A stretch of 64,000 nt of DNA from NCBI GenBank assembly GCA_902794095.1, contig CADBFZ010000003.1:62001-126000 (forward strand), written 5' to 3'. The first letter of the stretch is position 1; each line of letters starts with the position of its first letter. This stretch comes from an uncultured Lachnospiraceae bacterium (GTDB lineage: Bacteria > Bacillota > Clostridia > Lachnospirales > Lachnospiraceae). Below are positions 12,888-23,707 of this stretch, piece by piece. The translations under genes and the position numbers were made by a program. Below the pieces are notes generated by a model. It did no database searches. It saw only the letters and a program-made list of their open reading frames with translations, and had not been told where the DNA came from.

Positions 12888-13718
12888 TTATTCTATCCCA
12901 TTTTGAAGCTTTTGGGAAGATTTTTCACAAATATGACTTATATACATCTCGGCTACATCAAGGTCTGTAAGGTTGTAGAGCATCCTTGCCCCGGCCGCAT
13001 CCTCGACCTCATTTACGATCCATTTTCCGTGATCTTTAATGAAATCCACCCCGATGTAATCGGACAGGAGGTAATCGGACAGCTTAAGTGCCATATTTAC
13101 CGCCTCTTCGGGGGGATCGACAAGCACCGCTTCACCTCCCAGGCTGAAATTACTCCTAAAATCCGTCTTGGAAGTTCGAAGAACCGATGCCAGCACCCTG
13201 CCACCCATAATATACAGGCGCATATCCTGACCGGGGGTATCACACATTTTCTGTATGATCCATTCGGAAGGATTAAGTCCTCTTATGATCTCGCGGACAT
13301 CTTCGTACTTTCTTGCCTTAAATACCCTGTTTCCGCCGTGGCCCCTTCTGTGCTTAACGATGTAAGGCGCCGCAAAAGGAATCTCATCTTCGGGTGTATC
13401 CCCGGGTACCGTCTCCATTACCGGCATTTCCAGTTCCCGGAAAAGAGAATACTCTTCAAACTTGTCGTTTCCTATACGAACGGTTTCCGAATTGTTAAAG
13501 CTCTTGATTCCCTGACCTTCAAAATATCTCGAAACTTCTTCGTCCCTGGATCTGTTTATCGCAAAAACCGCGTCCGTTTCATCAAATGCCTGCATCGGCG
13601 TTATAAGATCGAGACAAATCCCTCTCTCTGCAGCCTTCTGAGTCAGGCTGTCTATGAACCATCTGTTTTTTTCTATATCCGCTTCAAAATAAACCAGAAG
13701 CGCTCTATTTTCTTTCAT
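12888..13718 (-). CDS. RimK-like ATP-grasp ligase, second of a tandem pair
   Basis: This 276-residue protein has the three-lobed ATP-grasp layout. There is an N-terminal preATP-grasp lobe (LLVYFEADIEKNRWFIDSL), the ATP-lid segment PYIVKHRRGHGGNRVF (about 112-128) and a C-terminal metal site. In the metal site the usual E-x-N is replaced by VNEVEDAAGARMLYN. Family members join carboxylates to amines through an acyl phosphate; the substrate here is unknown. Its start overlaps the upstream paralogue by 14 bases, so the two are almost certainly translated together and may work as a pair. Its metal site differs clearly from that of the partner. Confidence 0.8.
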   Translation of the reverse strand: MKENRALLVYFEADIEKNRWFIDSLTQKAAERGICLDLITPMQAFDETDAVFAINRSRDEEVSRYFEGQGIKSFNNSETVRIGNDKFEEYSLFRELEMPVMETVPGDTPEDEIPFAAPYIVKHRRGHGGNRVFKARKYEDVREIIRGLNPSEWIIQKMCDTPGQDMRLYIMGGRVLASVLRTSKTDFRSNFSLGGEAVLVDPPEEAVNMALKLSDYLLSDYIGVDFIKDHGKWIVNEVEDAAGARMLYNLTDLDVAEMYISHICEKSSQKLQNGIE

Positions 13719-14580
13719 CCATGTACTCTTTTATATAACTTATTATGTGCTCGGCCATGTTTATGCCTGTGCACTGGAGCGTTGTTTTAAAGTGGGGATT
13801 GGAGTTGACCTCACAAATGATGGGGCCTTCTTTTCCGAACAGGACATCCACACCCGCAAAATCAAGACCCAGGGCGCGGCATGCGGCGATTGCCATCTCC
13901 TCCTGCTCCTTGGTTGCGGTAAAGCTCTTCATGCTGCCGCCGTTTGTGATATTGGAGCGAAAATCATTGTCATTATATCTGTACATCGAAGCAACCACTT
14001 TGTCTCCGACTACATTGATCCTCACATCCCTGCCCGCAGATTCCTCGATATACTCCTGCATTATAAAAGGATGTTCCTTAAAAGAAGCAATAAGAACTTC
14101 CGCTTCATACGAGTTCTTAACCAGATGAACCTGCTGACCGAAAGATCCCCTGTTTTCCTTAATTATCATGGGATATCCCAGTTCTTCCTCCGCCTTCCTT
14201 AGAAAAGAAAGCTCCGTGCATCCGAATGTGGGATATGCCTTGGGGGATAAAAATGTCTTCGGGGTTCTGATTCCTCCGGCCACAAGAGCTATGGCGGTCT
14301 GACCTTTATCGTCGCAGGCTTCGATGCTCTGTGCCGAATTAAAAAGCCTCAGCCCCATCTTCTCAAGGCGGGAAGCCAGGAGAATGTCCTTATCCCAGAA
14401 GATTCCGAAATCGGGAAGTTCAAAGTCATCAAAACCGCTCTGCACGCTGCAGAATATGTCCGATGAAGTCTTAAGATCAAGCTCCACGCCGACCTTTTTA
14501 CCCGCTTCGAGAAGCAGATTATAGATCTCGCTGAACTTATCCCATTTAACAAAAGAATTTACTATTAACCAGCCTTTCAA
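13705..14580 (-). CDS. RimK-like ATP-grasp ligase, first of a tandem pair
   Basis: The 291-residue protein is a RimK-family ATP-grasp enzyme. It has an N-terminal lobe (GWLIVNSFVKWDKFSEIYNLLLEAG) and ATP-binding lysine strands around GYPMIIKENRGSFGQQVHLV (about 135-155). The sequence FIMQEYIEESAGRDVRINVVGDKVVASMYR is typical RimK, and the intact Mg site is ICEVNSNPHF near residue 260. Translation appears to start at TTG (14578-14580), with AAGGA about nine bases upstream. No ATG fits without losing the conserved first strand. A small HTH gene precedes it and a second ATP-grasp gene overlaps its end. RimK itself adds glutamates to ribosomal protein S6, but nothing here fixes the substrate. Confidence 0.85.
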   Translation of the reverse strand: MKGWLIVNSFVKWDKFSEIYNLLLEAGKKVGVELDLKTSSDIFCSVQSGFDDFELPDFGIFWDKDILLASRLEKMGLRLFNSAQSIEACDDKGQTAIALVAGGIRTPKTFLSPKAYPTFGCTELSFLRKAEEELGYPMIIKENRGSFGQQVHLVKNSYEAEVLIASFKEHPFIMQEYIEESAGRDVRINVVGDKVVASMYRYNDNDFRSNITNGGSMKSFTATKEQEEMAIAACRALGLDFAGVDVLFGKEGPIICEVNSNPHFKTTLQCTGINMAEHIISYIKEYMDERK

Positions 14581-15031: not shown

Positions 15032-15072
15032 AAAAAACGGCCTTCGGACCGTATTGTCCGAGGGTCGTTTTT
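15032..15072 (-). terminator. Terminator after leuA-araC fusion
   Basis: A long stem of about 17 bp with a few G-U pairs (AAAAACGACCCTCGGAC on the minus strand) and a 6-base loop is followed by a run of T. It lies 20 bases past the stop of the leuA fusion gene. Confidence 0.85.
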
Positions 15073-15091: not shown

Positions 15092-17095
15092 TTACTGCTT
15101 TCTGTACTGGATAGGGGTTACTCCGTAGGTCTTCTTGAACATTCTGTTAAAATGCTCGACATTTTCGTATCCGACCTCGAGTGCAATGTTTTCGATGGAC
15201 TTTGCGGTGTCCTTAAGAAGGGTCTTAGCCCTCTTTAATCTCTCGATACGGACGACATCCTGGAAGGTTTCCCCGGTTTTATCCTTAATATATTTGGAAA
15301 GATAAGGTCTGGAGAGGTGGAACTCCTCAGCCATGGAATCAAGGGACACATCCAGGTAATTTCTCTGGATATAGGTAAGTACCTCAACAAGTCTCTCTTC
15401 ACGGGCTCTGTTGATGTGCTGGTCTGCAGCAACTTTATTGACGCAGCTTACAAGAGCCGCATTGGATGCCTTGATAATATCCTCATCCACGCCCACGCCC
15501 CAATAGGTCTTACCTTCAGAAACAACGCTTACATAGGAAGCTGCCTTTGAGGAACTGGTCTTGGAGATCGCATGCTCTTCGTAACCGGTGAGTTCATAGT
15601 CGACTCCCAGATAAAGCTTGATGGCATTACTTACGGAGTCGAGTCTTCCGTTACCTACGGTTACGACATTCTGCTCTCCGCTCTTATCCTTGAAGCTGAC
15701 GGAGCTTTCTATTCCGCCGTTTCCGAGCTGCTTATAATGGATCTCGGTTGCATCAAAAACGGGTCTTGAGGTGATATAAACGTCCTCAAATACCGAGAAC
15801 ATCTCATCAGGCTTAAGCTCCTTGTGCTTTCTGTCGGAAATGCCCTTCATGAGATATCCGACCTCTTCCTTCATAGCTGTGGGAAGGCTGAAGCCGAACT
15901 GCTGCTTAAGAACAAATGCTACGCCGCCCTTTCCGGAAGTGGAATTGATACGGATAACATCGGATTCGTACTCTCTTCCGATATCCGAGGGATCGATGGG
16001 AATATAGGGAATGTCCCATCTTGCTCCGGTCTTACCCTCTGCGCGGTAGTTCATACCCTTGCTGATTGCATCCTGATGGGATCCGGAGAATGCTGTAAAT
16101 ACGAGATCTCCGCCATAAGGGGTTCTCTCGTGAACCTTCATATTGGTGAATCTTTCATATGCTTCGCGGATCTGCATGATATTGGAGAAATCAAGTCCGC
16201 TGTCCACACCGTGAGTAACCATGTTCATGGCTACGGTAACAAGGTCGACATTACCGGTTCTTTCTCCGTTTCCGAAAAGAGTACCCTCAACACGGTCAGC
16301 TCCAGCCAATACGCCGAGCTCAGCATCCGCTACGCCGGTTCCTCTGTCGTTATGAGGGTGAACGGATAAAACAACGCCCTCACGATACTTCATATTATCG
16401 GACATATACTCGATCTGATCGGCGAAAACATGGGGCATTGCGACCTGAACGGTTGAAGGAAGGTTGATGATAGCCTTCTTCTCGGGAGTGGGCTTCCAAA
16501 CGTCGAGAACCGCATTACATACTTCAAGTGCAAATTCGGGCTCGGTCTGAGAAAAGCTCTCGGGGCTGTACTCGAACATGAAGTTTCCGTCAGTCTCATC
16601 GGCAAGCTCCTTTAAAAGCTTTGCACCGTCGACTGCGATCTTTAAGATCTCGGGCTTTTCCTTCTTGAAAACCTGCTCTCTCTGCTCAACGGAAGTAGAA
16701 TTATAAAGATGAACGATTGCCTTGGGGCATCCCTTAACCGCATCAAAAGTCTTGCGGATAATGTGCTCTCTTGCCTGAGTAAGAACCTGAATGGTTACAT
16801 CATCGGGGATCATATTCTTATCGATAAGGGCTCTGATGAACTCAAACTCGGTATCGGAAGAGGCGGGGAAGCCGACCTCGATCTCTTTAAATCCCACATC
16901 AACAAGGAGCTTGAAAAACTCCAGTTTGGTCTCAAGGCTCATGGGATCGATAAGAGCCTGATTGCCGTCACGAAGGTCAACGCTGCACCAGATGGGAGGT
17001 GTTGTTATTCTGTCCTTTTTTACCCAATTGTGATTAAGTACAGGAGGCATATAATATGTGGGCCTGTATTTCTCACTGACATTGATCTTACTCAT
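15092..17095 (-). CDS. leuA: 2-isopropylmalate synthase with C-terminal AraC-type DNA-binding domain
   Basis: The N-terminal part condenses acetyl-CoA with 2-oxoisovalerate, the first step of leucine synthesis. It has the metal-binding DLRDGNQAL (about 40-48), the HPHND motif and GNGERTGNVDL of the HMG-CoA lyase-like barrel. The LeuA regulatory domain that normally binds leucine follows (about 420-550, including VTVGNGRLDSVSNAI). The yeast-type LeuA should end near 555. Here about 100 residues continue as a complete AraC/XylS HTH module. It contains LDSMAEEFHLSRPYLSKYIKDKTGETFQDVVRIERLKRAKTLL, IENIALEVGYENVEHFNRMFKKTYGVTPIQYRKQ, with both helix-turn-helix units and the final signature. The frame is continuous and there is no start or stop at the junction. 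AAGGAG precedes the ATG. A regulatory role for the extra domain is inferred. Confidence 0.95.
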   Translation of the reverse strand: MSKINVSEKYRPTYYMPPVLNHNWVKKDRITTPPIWCSVDLRDGNQALIDPMSLETKLEFFKLLVDVGFKEIEVGFPASSDTEFEFIRALIDKNMIPDDVTIQVLTQAREHIIRKTFDAVKGCPKAIVHLYNSTSVEQREQVFKKEKPEILKIAVDGAKLLKELADETDGNFMFEYSPESFSQTEPEFALEVCNAVLDVWKPTPEKKAIINLPSTVQVAMPHVFADQIEYMSDNMKYREGVVLSVHPHNDRGTGVADAELGVLAGADRVEGTLFGNGERTGNVDLVTVAMNMVTHGVDSGLDFSNIMQIREAYERFTNMKVHERTPYGGDLVFTAFSGSHQDAISKGMNYRAEGKTGARWDIPYIPIDPSDIGREYESDVIRINSTSGKGGVAFVLKQQFGFSLPTAMKEEVGYLMKGISDRKHKELKPDEMFSVFEDVYITSRPVFDATEIHYKQLGNGGIESSVSFKDKSGEQNVVTVGNGRLDSVSNAIKLYLGVDYELTGYEEHAISKTSSSKAASYVSVVSEGKTYWGVGVDEDIIKASNAALVSCVNKVAADQHINRAREERLVEVLTYIQRNYLDVSLDSMAEEFHLSRPYLSKYIKDKTGETFQDVVRIERLKRAKTLLKDTAKSIENIALEVGYENVEHFNRMFKKTYGVTPIQYRKQ

Positions 17096-17130: not shown

Positions 17131-17258
17131 CCTGAACAATTATGAAATTAAGATACTACTCTGTATTCATAAAATCAAGAGGTATTTTAACATAAAAATA
17201 TGACTGATTGTAATGTTAAAACAAGAAAAACCGCGTAATTACGCTATTTTCTCAAAAT

Positions 17259-17296
17259 AATAAGCCGGTTTCTCCGCGTAGAAAAGCCGACTTATT
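17259..17296 (-). terminator. Terminator after the small Smr gene
   Basis: AATAAGCCGGTTT pairs with AAAGCCGACTTATT (with G-U pairs) around a 10-base loop; T-rich sequence follows on the minus strand. It lies 25 bases after the Smr stop and upstream of the leuA promoter. Confidence 0.75.
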
Positions 17297-17320
17297 TTAA
17301 TCTATCTTATTGATTTATCC

Positions 17321-17569
17321 TTAAAAAAGCTCTTTCAAAACAAGAACTGTAATACCTTGATTATCCCCCGGCATGATGCGTTTTACTTTCTTATCATACT
17401 TGAAGCTGTCATATATCATATCCCGAAGGTTTGTGCCTCTGTTAAACCCATGAATAAGACGTATCTGATACGTTCCTGTGCCGGCCGAGGCGAGTACTTT
17501 TTCTATTTTTTTCTCTGCTTCATCGCACCTCATACCATGCAGGTCGACGGTGATAAACGGTTCGTCCAT
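17321..17569 (-). CDS. Stand-alone Smr-domain protein
   Basis: This 82-residue protein is a single Smr (small MutS-related) domain. It has the first motif VDLHGMRCDEAEKKIEKVL and the second motif LIHGFNRGTNLRDMIYDSF, with the later strand IMPGDNQGITVLVLKE. Smr domains bind or cut nucleic acid; several act on mRNA in stalled-ribosome rescue. GGAGG five bases upstream of the ATG at 17569 decides the start. It is monocistronic, divergent from the DUF4867 gene. A second Smr domain in this window is at the end of MutS2. Confidence 0.88.
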   Translation of the reverse strand: MDEPFITVDLHGMRCDEAEKKIEKVLASAGTGTYQIRLIHGFNRGTNLRDMIYDSFKYDKKVKRIMPGDNQGITVLVLKELF

Positions 17570-17713: not shown

Positions 17714-18349
17714 ATGCAGTTAATCTCAGTTCACAGCAAAGAATTCGAAAAGTACGGAAAGGTTTTAACCGGATATGATGTATCTGCATTGCTTGATGCA
17801 ATGAATAAGATAGATCTTCCCGCAGAGGGAGTAGCTTACGAGCCCGGAATCGACAGCCTCGAAGCTTGCACCGATCTTTACAAGGATTTCACAGACCGCG
17901 CTTACGGCGGAATGCCTATTCAGATAGGTATGTGCTGGGGAAGAAACACCAAGCTCAACTGCCTTGAGTATCACAGAGGAAGCGAGCTCAACATCGGAAC
18001 CACTTCTTTCGTTCTTCTCCTTGCTAAGGCAGAGGATATCCACGACGGAAAGCTTGATACCAAGGATGTTGTAGCATTCAAGGCTGAAGCAGGCGATGTT
18101 GTTCTCGTATACGAAGACAGCCTTCACTATGCTCCCTGCCAGTGCGACGGAAACGACGGATTCCGCGTAACCGTAGTTCTTCCCAAGGGAACCAACACCG
18201 ACAAGCCCGCTCTTAAGGAAGGAAATGACGAGGATAAGCTCCTTTGGGCTCGCAACAAGTGGCTCATCGCTCATCCCGAGAGCAGCGAGGCATCTAACGG
18301 TGCTTACGTAGGACTTACCGGCAAGAACATCGACATTGCTGTTGATTAA
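17714..18349 (+). CDS. DUF4867 family protein (cupin-like)
   Basis: This 211-residue soluble protein resembles the DUF4867 family: MQLISVHSKEFEKYGKVLTGYDVSALL, then GMCWGRNTKLNCLEYHRGSELNIGTTSFVLLLAKAEDI and AEAGDVVLVYEDSLHYAPCQ. The spaced His/Glu residues (LEYHRGSE, LHYAPCQ) and the short beta strands look like a cupin-type metal site, but the reaction is not known. AGGAGG stands eight bases before the ATG. Codons are strongly biased to C-ending forms (AAC, ATC, CTC, TTC), as in HU and phosphoketolase, suggesting high expression. It is the only plus-strand gene left of oriC and stands alone, with its own terminator. Confidence 0.8.
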   Translation: MQLISVHSKEFEKYGKVLTGYDVSALLDAMNKIDLPAEGVAYEPGIDSLEACTDLYKDFTDRAYGGMPIQIGMCWGRNTKLNCLEYHRGSELNIGTTSFVLLLAKAEDIHDGKLDTKDVVAFKAEAGDVVLVYEDSLHYAPCQCDGNDGFRVTVVLPKGTNTDKPALKEGNDEDKLLWARNKWLIAHPESSEASNGAYVGLTGKNIDIAVD

Positions 18350-21712: not shown

Positions 21713-23707
21713 TTAATGCCATCTCGAGATCCTGTCTTCGGGAGCAATATACATACCGTCTCCCTCGGAAACACCATATGTCTCATAGAAACAGTCGAGA
21801 GTTGAAAGAATCGCATTAACCCTTATAAGAGCAGGGCTGTGTGCATCCATGTCTATCTGATCCAAAAGAGCTGAGTCAACGGTTTTTTCCGCCCAGATCC
21901 TTGCATAATTCTCAAAGAGAAGTTTTCTCTCTTCATCATTATGTGTAAGAGAAGAGATACATTCCATCGCACCGAGGTCTGCATAATTTTCTCCGAGCGT
22001 CTGCTTTCCGTCTACATGATAAACACCGAATATGGTGAAATTATCTTCGAAATACCTGATCGCATCTTCGTTTCTTGCAACCAGTTTGTCATAATCTTCA
22101 GCAGCGATCCATGAAGGGTCATACTTTCCGTTTTCATCAAAAAGAATACAGTTACTGTCAAATGCATGTCCCATCTCATGAGCAACTACCATTCCCAGTC
22201 CGCCGAGATTTGTATAGTAATCTGCATCCATATCAAAGAAAGGAGTATTCATTATCGATACTGTAATATTGATATTATTGTATGCGGGATTATAGCAGGC
22301 ATTTAAGATCTGCATCTGCATCATTACGGATTCTCTGTCGAAGTCCTCATCGAGATCCCCGAAACTTTCCTTGATACCCTGTCTTGTATAATTGAGATAA
22401 AATTCAAAATAGTCTTTACCGGTTATATTTTTATATACGGAATTGTCATGCCTTACTACATCCGCACCGGTAACATATACGATATTGTCAAGCTTTTCCA
22501 GAAGTCCTTCTCTGGTCTGTTCGCTGAGCCAGTCTGCGTCACTGATAAGCTGTCTGTATCCTTCCCTTATGTCATCGCACAGTGCGATAAGAGCATCATC
22601 CATCTCCTCGGTATAATACTTCTCTACATAAATGGGATCCGTCTCCGCCATAAAAACGTCGTAAATCTCATTGATTACTCGGTCTTCCTCGGATGAATAA
22701 TCGATAGATGCATATTTTTCCAGAGCATCATATCCGTAGACGACAAAGTTTCTGTATCTTTTTATCAGCTTTGACATTTCCCACGCTTTAAGGGCAACGA
22801 GTCTTTCTTCATTAAGCATCTCACCCAGAGTTGCAAGCTGATCCGGATCATATATTCCAAACTGCTGCAGATGTGAATCGCTTATTCCGATCTTGGACAG
22901 ATAACTTTTGATATCCACACCGGGAAGCAGTTCCTCGATCTGATCTGCTGAGTATACTTGAAAATAAGTAAAATTCATCGGATCGTTTATGATATCCATG
23001 TTGGTCTTATTGAAAAGATCCATTGCGATATATCCGAACTGCGTTCCCGCTTCATCGGAATAATCAATATCATGACCCATTGCCTGCATGCTCGCACTGC
23101 CGTAGGTTTTTAATGAATTCAAACTGCGGTATGAATCTTCAAGATCCGTAAAGTTTACATCCATTATTCCGCTGTACTGGTTAAATACCAGAATCCTCTC
23201 ACCGGATGCAAGATAGTTTGAGTCCACACTTACGTTGAAGATATTTCCTACTCCGTAATCTCTCTGAAGCTTTGCATCTACATCGAGAAAATCTTCAATG
23301 GTTTCAACCGAATCAATCTCATGCAAAAGTGCATCAAGTTCTGCTGGAACGGGGCTGTTTTCAAAATCATATGCAACGTATTTATCATATGCGGTTTTGA
23401 TGATATCTTCTTCAGAGCCTGCTTCATATCCGCTTCCGGCCGCAACTTCCCTGATAATATCCTTGACCTGGTTTTCCGTAATCTCAGGATCAAATCCGCC
23501 GCCTGCAGACATTGCTCCATATTTGAACTCTGCCTCAGCTAAAGCTTCCTCATTAATAAAACGATAGAAATCATCCTGTGCCCTGGCAGGAGGAAGCTCT
23601 GTCACTTCACTTTCCTGCTCTTCGGGAACTTCCATGGTGATCCCGCATCCGCTCAGCATGGTGACTGCCATGCTGATGCAAAGCATTATCCCGATCTTTT
23701 TTCTCAT
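21713..23707 (-). CDS. M13 (neprilysin-like) metallopeptidase lipoprotein
   Basis: This is a 664-residue zinc endopeptidase of the PepO/neprilysin family, which cleaves short peptides. A lipoprotein signal (ML CISMAVTMLSGC) anchors it outside the membrane. The zinc site VVAHEMGHAFDSN is near 510-515, the third ligand Glu is in GENYADLGAME near 572, and the end has the family pattern HSPALIRVNAILSTLDCFYETYGV...GDGMYIAPEDR with a terminal Trp. The usual substrate-backbone motif NAYY/F is replaced by VSIMNTPFFD. The start overlaps the upstream membrane-protein gene by 4 bases (ATGA) with AGGAGG in front. It is cotranscribed with an FtsX-type ABC transporter. Confidence 0.92.
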   Translation of the reverse strand: MRKKIGIMLCISMAVTMLSGCGITMEVPEEQESEVTELPPARAQDDFYRFINEEALAEAEFKYGAMSAGGGFDPEITENQVKDIIREVAAGSGYEAGSEEDIIKTAYDKYVAYDFENSPVPAELDALLHEIDSVETIEDFLDVDAKLQRDYGVGNIFNVSVDSNYLASGERILVFNQYSGIMDVNFTDLEDSYRSLNSLKTYGSASMQAMGHDIDYSDEAGTQFGYIAMDLFNKTNMDIINDPMNFTYFQVYSADQIEELLPGVDIKSYLSKIGISDSHLQQFGIYDPDQLATLGEMLNEERLVALKAWEMSKLIKRYRNFVVYGYDALEKYASIDYSSEEDRVINEIYDVFMAETDPIYVEKYYTEEMDDALIALCDDIREGYRQLISDADWLSEQTREGLLEKLDNIVYVTGADVVRHDNSVYKNITGKDYFEFYLNYTRQGIKESFGDLDEDFDRESVMMQMQILNACYNPAYNNINITVSIMNTPFFDMDADYYTNLGGLGMVVAHEMGHAFDSNCILFDENGKYDPSWIAAEDYDKLVARNEDAIRYFEDNFTIFGVYHVDGKQTLGENYADLGAMECISSLTHNDEERKLLFENYARIWAEKTVDSALLDQIDMDAHSPALIRVNAILSTLDCFYETYGVSEGDGMYIAPEDRISRWH

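Follow-up and report, generated by a model that had tools for sequence, protein, structure and literature searches.

The window, by which is meant the whole 64,000-nucleotide stretch of Lachnospiraceae DNA analysed here, carries a single uninterrupted open reading frame (ORF) of 667 codons in which a complete 2-isopropylmalate synthase (LeuA) is joined at its C-terminal end to an AraC-type DNA-binding domain, likewise complete. The first-pass annotation had read the locus in this way, as a full LeuA and an AraC domain in one frame, and the ORF, Pfam and NCBIfam matches confirmed it. Coordinates are given in Table 1. Pfam divided the LeuA part into HMGL-like (residues 35–311), IPMS_D2 (330–397) and LeuA_dimer (426–555) domains, NCBIfam placed it in the PRK03739 class (NF002991, 787.7 bits against a cut-off of 455, residues 8–554), and the Mycobacterium tuberculosis LeuA structure 1sr9, which belongs to the same enzyme class but has no DNA-binding tail, aligned with residues 9–523 at 523 bits. 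Residues R42, D43, E179, H246, H248, H340 and Y376, which correspond to the catalytic set of M. tuberculosis LeuA, were invariant in 23 aligned sequences. The allosteric LeuA_dimer domain is present and conserved in the fusion; leucine binding is known for LeuA. In the tail, HTH_18 matched residues 588–667 at 84.4 bits over the whole of its profile (positions 1–80 of 80), representing a complete two-helix-turn-helix (HTH) domain, HTH_AraC matched residues 628–666, and AraC-type chains from the PDB aligned with the fusion over about residues 567–667. No further LeuA-like gene turned up in the window's genome (80% complete).

Table 1. Positions in the window of the fused gene, its domains and the predicted regulatory features around it.
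Feature	Position	Strand	Basis
leuA-araC fusion gene, 667 aa	15092..17095	(-)	Single ORF; Pfam and NCBIfam matches
LeuA part, residues 1-555 (catalytic barrel, IPMS_D2, LeuA_dimer)	15430..17095	(-)	Pfam; homology to 1sr9
LeuA_dimer, residues 426-555, allosteric domain, proposed leucine sensor	15430..15819	(-)	Pfam, 80.2 bits
AraC-type DNA-binding domain, about residues 567-667	15092..15394	(-)	HTH_18, HTH_AraC, PDB alignment, AlphaFold2
Terminator-like hairpin 3' of the fusion gene	15037..15052	(-)	Consensus scan, 6 pairs then TTTTTATT
Probable promoter TTGATT-17-TATCTT, -35 overlapping the end of O1	17150..17178	(-)	Read from sequence
O1, predicted operator nearest the promoter; its second half, TGTTAAAATACCTCTTG, is intact and its first is degraded	17173..17217	(-)	Second-best matrix match of the window, 6.9 bits
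O2, further predicted operator; lies 110 bp upstream of O1 and overlaps the Smr-domain gene at its end	17283..17327	(-)	Best matrix match, 18.1 bits

The scanned neighbours of leuA-araC in the window are not leucine genes: upstream lies an Smr-domain gene, from which a gene for a DUF4867 protein (17714–18349, +) diverges, and downstream lie a Cro/C1-type HTH gene and, beyond it, two adjacent genes for RimK-like ATP-grasp proteins (12888–14580, -). Genes of the ilvB, ilvN, ilvC, leuC and leuD kinds are grouped on a different contig of the same genome. A gene for an M13-family peptidase sits there between ilvC and leuC (L220, 7710–9662, -), and another M13 gene is found in the window at 21713–23707.

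Distribution and conservation of the fusion

The fusion is not peculiar to one genome. A match to it was found in 30/31 genomes of the genus and the full fusion, in one frame, in 27/31; among the others, one retained the tail and had lost the gene start at a contig edge (G007), one had a frame broken near the tail (G024), in one the match ended after residue 370 (G028), and one gave no match (G013). In a sample of 397 Lachnospiraceae genomes, at least 89 showed, among the matches listed, a match running continuously through the tail, a lower bound because matches under about 774 bits were left out. Named relatives with the fusion include Lachnospiraceae bacterium P6A3, AC2028, Dorea sp. 5-2, Faecalicatena contorta and Sporofaciens musculi. 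The class sample yielded the fusion in at least 13/391 genomes, three of them outside the family (G636, G500 (f14) and G638 (f73)), and the phylum sample in at least 4/398, one of them outside the class (G1076); these surveys took matches beyond E = 1e-215 and 1e-225, respectively, and would have missed any weaker fusions. Repeated sequences among the fusion ORFs were removed before counting, and G420, where the match seemed to enter the tail, proved on checking to be tail-less. The artefact considered in the first-pass annotation, a tail confined to one genome through a frameshift or an assembly join, is ruled out by these continuous fusions in genus and family, and the LeuA-AraC architecture sought elsewhere turns out to be widespread in Lachnospiraceae, with rare members outside the family.

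In a tree of the LeuA core, calculated with the tail left out and near-copies removed (202 reduced to 148 rows), one side comprised 113 rows, of which 98 were fused (out of 99 in all), 13 tail-less and 2 split, and the other comprised 34 tail-less rows and one fused row (L128). The shortest account of the tail label on this tree took 11 changes, compared with a mean of 42 in shuffles. For a quick tree whose root was not inferred and many of whose forks are weakly supported, the simplest reading would be one old gain of the tail and several losses. At L301 (on the same contig as L085), L309 and L050 leuA is followed by an AraC tail that is out of frame with it, the shift at L309 coming after a run of A and that at L301 having an overlapping stop and possible start; these could be split genes, slippage or sequencing error, and all three loci retain the predicted operator described below.

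Degenerate HTH residues had also been feared. Instead, the domain is complete, its recognition helices are nearly invariant and it is under purifying selection. Helix positions S595, P597, Y598, S600, K601, N645, E647, H648, F649 and R651 were 93–100% conserved among 149 fusions, near-copies included. P597 and K601 differ from the 20 other AraC domains compared; the second helix of the fusions is shared with these domains, partly because 13 of the 20 had been fetched by it. Ka/Ks in the tail was 0.035–0.22 in 6/8 close pairs (two could not be computed, and Ks was near saturation in several), and the purifying selection is usually weaker than in the enzyme, the tail evolving faster. An AlphaFold2 model from 23 sequences had a mean pLDDT of 75.9, with 81–90 from residue 571 on and values under 50 in parts of the enzyme (323–351, 354–390 and others). 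In this model a single helix, residues 540–578, runs from the allosteric into the DNA-binding domain, with a dip in pLDDT to 57 at 561–570.

A predicted operator and its link with the tail

Upstream regions of fused leuA genes share a motif. It was present in 44/47 non-redundant fusions of the training set (81 upstream regions before removal of near-copies), the misses being L024, L035 and L064, in the last of which the 700-bp limit truncated the site. The motif consensus, approximately aTTAAAAtanATCAAnaAAanGATTAAAtnnATCAC, consists of two direct repeats at a 22-bp period; an inverted repeat fitted less well. Applied to held-out fusions, the matrix reached at least 10 bits in 56/59 and at least 20 bits in 51/59, whereas among tail-less leuA genes of the same family it did so in 2/37 and 0/37 (Fisher 3e-20 and 4e-19, respectively, p values that ignore relatedness). 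Seven of the 59 held-out fusions shared at least 15 14-mers with a training upstream region, by hand count, and without them 49/52 still reached 10 bits. The four fusions from outside the family (G636, G500, G638 and G1076) had the site at 36.7–42.5 bits. Three loci with the tail in another frame or cut by a contig end (L301, L302 and L309) were excluded from the tail-less group; the predicted operator was kept where the tail was frame-shifted (L301, 43.1 bits; L309, 29.3 bits) and scored 47.7 bits at L302, where the contig end cuts the tail.

The operator is present or absent together with the AraC tail, nearly always. Over 147 tree rows (split or cut tails scored as tail present, one short-upstream row dropped), 92 had tail and operator, 8 tail only, 1 operator only and 46 neither. 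Even within the fused side of the tree, 12/13 tail-less rows scored under 15 bits and 11/13 under 0; the exceptions, L306 (17.0 bits) and L331 (13.7 bits), fall in one tail-less group on that side, and their sites may be remnants. Across 5 independent pairs joined by supported branches, a number with which p below 0.05 is unreachable, tail and operator changed together in a mean of 4.9 and oppositely never on average. Fusions lacking a site were L024 and L035 (window's genus), L268, L289 and L292. Among the 59 held-out fusions, L292 and L294 had tails that had diverged furthest (43% and 47% identical to that of the window); L292 had no site (best 3.3 bits) and a T-box core word, and L294 a weak site (11.7 bits).

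The position of the motif relative to the promoter was rigid. An extended -10 (TGnTAnnnT) lay exactly 15 nt after the motif window in 43/51 held-out fusions with a strong operator, and the hexamer 17 nt before the extended -10 matched TTGACA at 4/6 positions or more in 17/50 and at 3 or fewer in 33/50, such that the predicted downstream half-site abuts or overlaps a mostly poor -35. The downstream half-site of AraC at araBAD is similarly placed next to the -35, and this geometry, a half-site at a poor -35 and at a fixed distance from an extended -10, suggests AraC-like activation. A second, weaker site (at least 8 bits) was found in 36/90 non-redundant fusions, compared with 0.022 matches per sequence in Markov controls and 2 matches in 47 tail-less upstream regions. 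Its commonest offset was +73 to +75 bp (18/37 matches), about seven DNA turns, close to where transcription would be expected to begin.

In the window itself, the two best matrix matches in all 64 kb, O2 and O1, both precede leuA-araC. O1 occupies the position of the strong operators in near relatives and is degraded by comparison (6.9 bits, against 34.1 in L054, 40.2 in L040 and 16.7 in L038); here the case for the window's own copy is weakest. Counterparts of O2 lie at 110–111 bp in L038, L039, L054, L040, L048 and L047. The probable promoter was not among the matches of a consensus promoter scan of the window. A candidate leucine attenuator at 17223–17296 (-), matching Rfam Leu_leader at 29 bits against a threshold of 50 (E 0.0034), was treated as chance; the sub-threshold match covers a terminator-like hairpin between O1 and O2.

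T-box leaders, further targets and related repeats

Tail-less leuA genes are mostly preceded by a T-box leader, which was present in 21/25 scanned loci (by Rfam, 17/20 and a further 4/5: L304, L305, L306 and L331, with L300 lacking it). Rfam found a T-box in 0/20 fusions with a gene-proximal operator, none in L240 and none in the window's upstream region. All 12 of the 12 held-out fusions with the operator more than 330 bp upstream had a T-box, the operator lying ahead of it. Over the tree rows, a T-box word used as a proxy occurred in 17/100 with the tail and 37/47 without.

Twenty leuC/ilvC regions from 14 genomes contained no match of at least 15 bits to the operator matrix; six of them had matches of at least 6 bits (highest 12.8). 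In 1.24 Mb of fetched loci, mostly those around leuA, 67 matches of at least 15 bits were listed: placed by hand, all but four were upstream of leuA or the same site on the other strand, the four being at L078 (position 4167) and at the AraC loci L109, L110 and L116. When 26 genomes (16 fused, 10 others) were searched with a pattern allowing up to 3 mismatches, the totals were often above, and not far from, those of a reversed-pattern control. In the five fused genomes for which matches were listed (G001, G002, G261, G170 and G374) the best of them was at leuA, with further 2-mismatch matches in G170 and G374. An extra 22.7-bit site was seen in G002 (L171) between peptidase-like and oxidoreductase-like frames, named by eye. 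With matrix scans covering the fetched loci and the leuC/ilvC regions, these data are evidence for one main predicted target, the fusion's own gene.

A related repeat was found after other AraC genes. Thirteen non-LeuA loci (L104–L116) were fetched by the word EHFNRMFK of the second recognition helix; that helix is alike in them because they were chosen by it, and the DNA site was not so chosen. The leuA matrix gave a site of at least 7 bits within 500 bp after the AraC stop in 9/13 loci, compared at the same threshold with 1.2% of 2134 random windows (mostly coding DNA) and 2.5% of 2600 same-window shuffles. Eight loci (L104, L105, L107, L109, L110, L112, L115 and L116) had a common form, comprising a block like ATCAAGAAAAnTGA, a 22-bp period, and a first box of TGTGAAAAA or similar instead of TTAAAA; the site in L114 differs. 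The first box differs from that of the leuA operator, as the first recognition helix does from that of the tail. Since L104–L116 are related to one another, these are not eight independent cases. The conserved 22-bp direct repeat, TGTGAAAAATAATCAAGAAAACTGATAATATGAAAT and variants, lies 64–436 bp after the AraC stop and before the next gene, which encodes a solute-binding protein in L104, L110 and L116 (three scanned), and it is likely the operator of a transporter operon. The regulators of the two loci scanned for it, L110 and L112, are HAMP-AraC proteins. Like LeuA-AraC, these regulators have this second recognition helix, on which they were selected, and a 22-bp repeat of related sequence; they differ in carrying a membrane-type sensor in place of an enzyme, and in their first helix and first box.

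Models of regulation and their meaning

The proposal of the first-pass annotation that the enzyme is its own regulator gains support from the conserved operator at the leuA promoter, which tracks the tail, and from the lack of a site of at least 15 bits in the 20 leuC/ilvC regions. We consider it highly probable that LeuA-AraC is a bifunctional, self-regulating biosynthetic enzyme acting at a predicted operator of its own leuA promoter; judged from sequence, the fusion very probably controls its own production. We infer DNA binding by the fusion, leucine as its effector, and activation over repression. In the proposed mechanism, the LeuA part would make 2-isopropylmalate and the C-terminal AraC domain would bind the direct-repeat operator at the leuA promoter. 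LeuA dimerizes through its allosteric domains, so that a dimer would hold two DNA-binding domains together for half-sites 22 bp apart. At low leucine, the leucine-free form would activate transcription through RNA polymerase in the manner of AraC; leucine on LeuA_dimer would at once inhibit catalysis and release or re-seat the DNA-binding domains, and the leucine-bound form would lose activation or shift to a repressing arrangement. A second operator, 73–75 bp downstream in some lineages and, in the genus of the window, 110 bp upstream, would probably serve repression or looping. The fuller account is put forward tentatively, as having something near an even chance: that one leucine-binding event stops both catalysis and the enzyme's own promoter, that paired operators are phased as in AraC, and that the loop has displaced the T-box in many Lachnospiraceae and has on several occasions been lost and exchanged for it again.

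Activation by the leucine-free form would be the best fit to the geometry, from which the sign is read, and repression is the main rival. The fusion might bind the operator and, like PutA, mainly repress its own gene, with RNA polymerase blocked at the -35 or the second operator and a signal relieving or strengthening the block. O1 overlaps the -35 region, 18/37 secondary matches fall at +73 to +75 bp, close to the presumed start of transcription, and leucine-promoted repression would be the simplest feedback, which together make this a possibility to be taken seriously, if not one we would expect to hold. Against it, a match to TTGACA at 4/6 positions or more is seen in only 17/50, yet the spacing of operator and extended -10 hardly varies, which would be expected if an activator stood in for the -35, and 54/90 fusions have no second site at 8 bits. 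The signal is a separate matter. Leucine as the effector would follow from established LeuA biochemistry and is indicated here by the presence of LeuA_dimer, but LeuA has several ligand sites, and a substrate or product of the enzyme (2-oxoisovalerate, acetyl-CoA or 2-isopropylmalate) might instead act via the active site; yeast Leu3, a regulator of leucine genes, senses 2-isopropylmalate. This we regard as unlikely, given that it is LeuA_dimer that adjoins the tail and that the modelled helix 540–578 spans both, albeit with its dip to 57 at 561–570.

Nine other places in the window's genome match the tail in AraC-like frames, and one could suppose that the operator belongs to a separate AraC-family regulator, the tail doing something else. 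However, operator and tail come and go together, the loci with a frame-shifted tail (L301 and L309) keep the site, and the related site after AraC genes goes with the tail's second recognition helix, making a separate regulator very improbable. Nor is the tail readily dismissed as a neutral leftover of gene fusion with no DNA-binding role: several lineages have apparently lost it and kept LeuA, and it evolves faster than the enzyme, but with purifying selection, near-invariant recognition helices and linkage to the operator set against these points such a reading is barely credible.

PutA, a proline dehydrogenase, resembles LeuA-AraC in being a metabolic enzyme with an added DNA-binding domain. 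It is a catabolic enzyme and a repressor whose DNA-binding domain is a ribbon-helix-helix, whereas LeuA-AraC is a biosynthetic, feedback-inhibited enzyme with an AraC domain. BirA and NadR have other enzyme folds and other DNA-binding domains, with no AraC domain. Escherichia coli AraC acts at araBAD as a dimer on direct-repeat half-sites about two turns apart, with an extra distant operator, and senses through a sugar-binding cupin; its half-site spacing is 21 bp, compared with 22 bp at fused leuA. Trigger enzymes are established, PutA, BirA and NadR being described as such in passages of PMC8249747 and PMC6978683. In a passage of the former, binding by E. coli PutA is confined to its own gene and the divergently oriented putP, and passages of both describe BirA and NadR as enzymes that also control genes of their own pathway, as proposed for LeuA-AraC. 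Searches of open-licence PMC papers, read at the level of titles and abstract openings, gave no description of a LeuA-AraC fusion, nor of an AraC domain attached to any other feedback-inhibited enzyme of amino-acid biosynthesis. Enzyme-regulators are thus already known, and what appears to be new is the LeuA-AraC fusion with its predicted operator.

Where the fusion is present, control of leuA would seem to have passed from RNA (the T-box) to protein, a natural experiment in regulatory replacement. If the proposed self-regulation by LeuA-AraC is true, the enzyme's allosteric sensor would also sense for its gene, and the coupling of enzyme-level and gene-level feedback would be open to study in one protein with a defined operator, in a fusion found commonly among Lachnospiraceae, one of the major families of gut and rumen.
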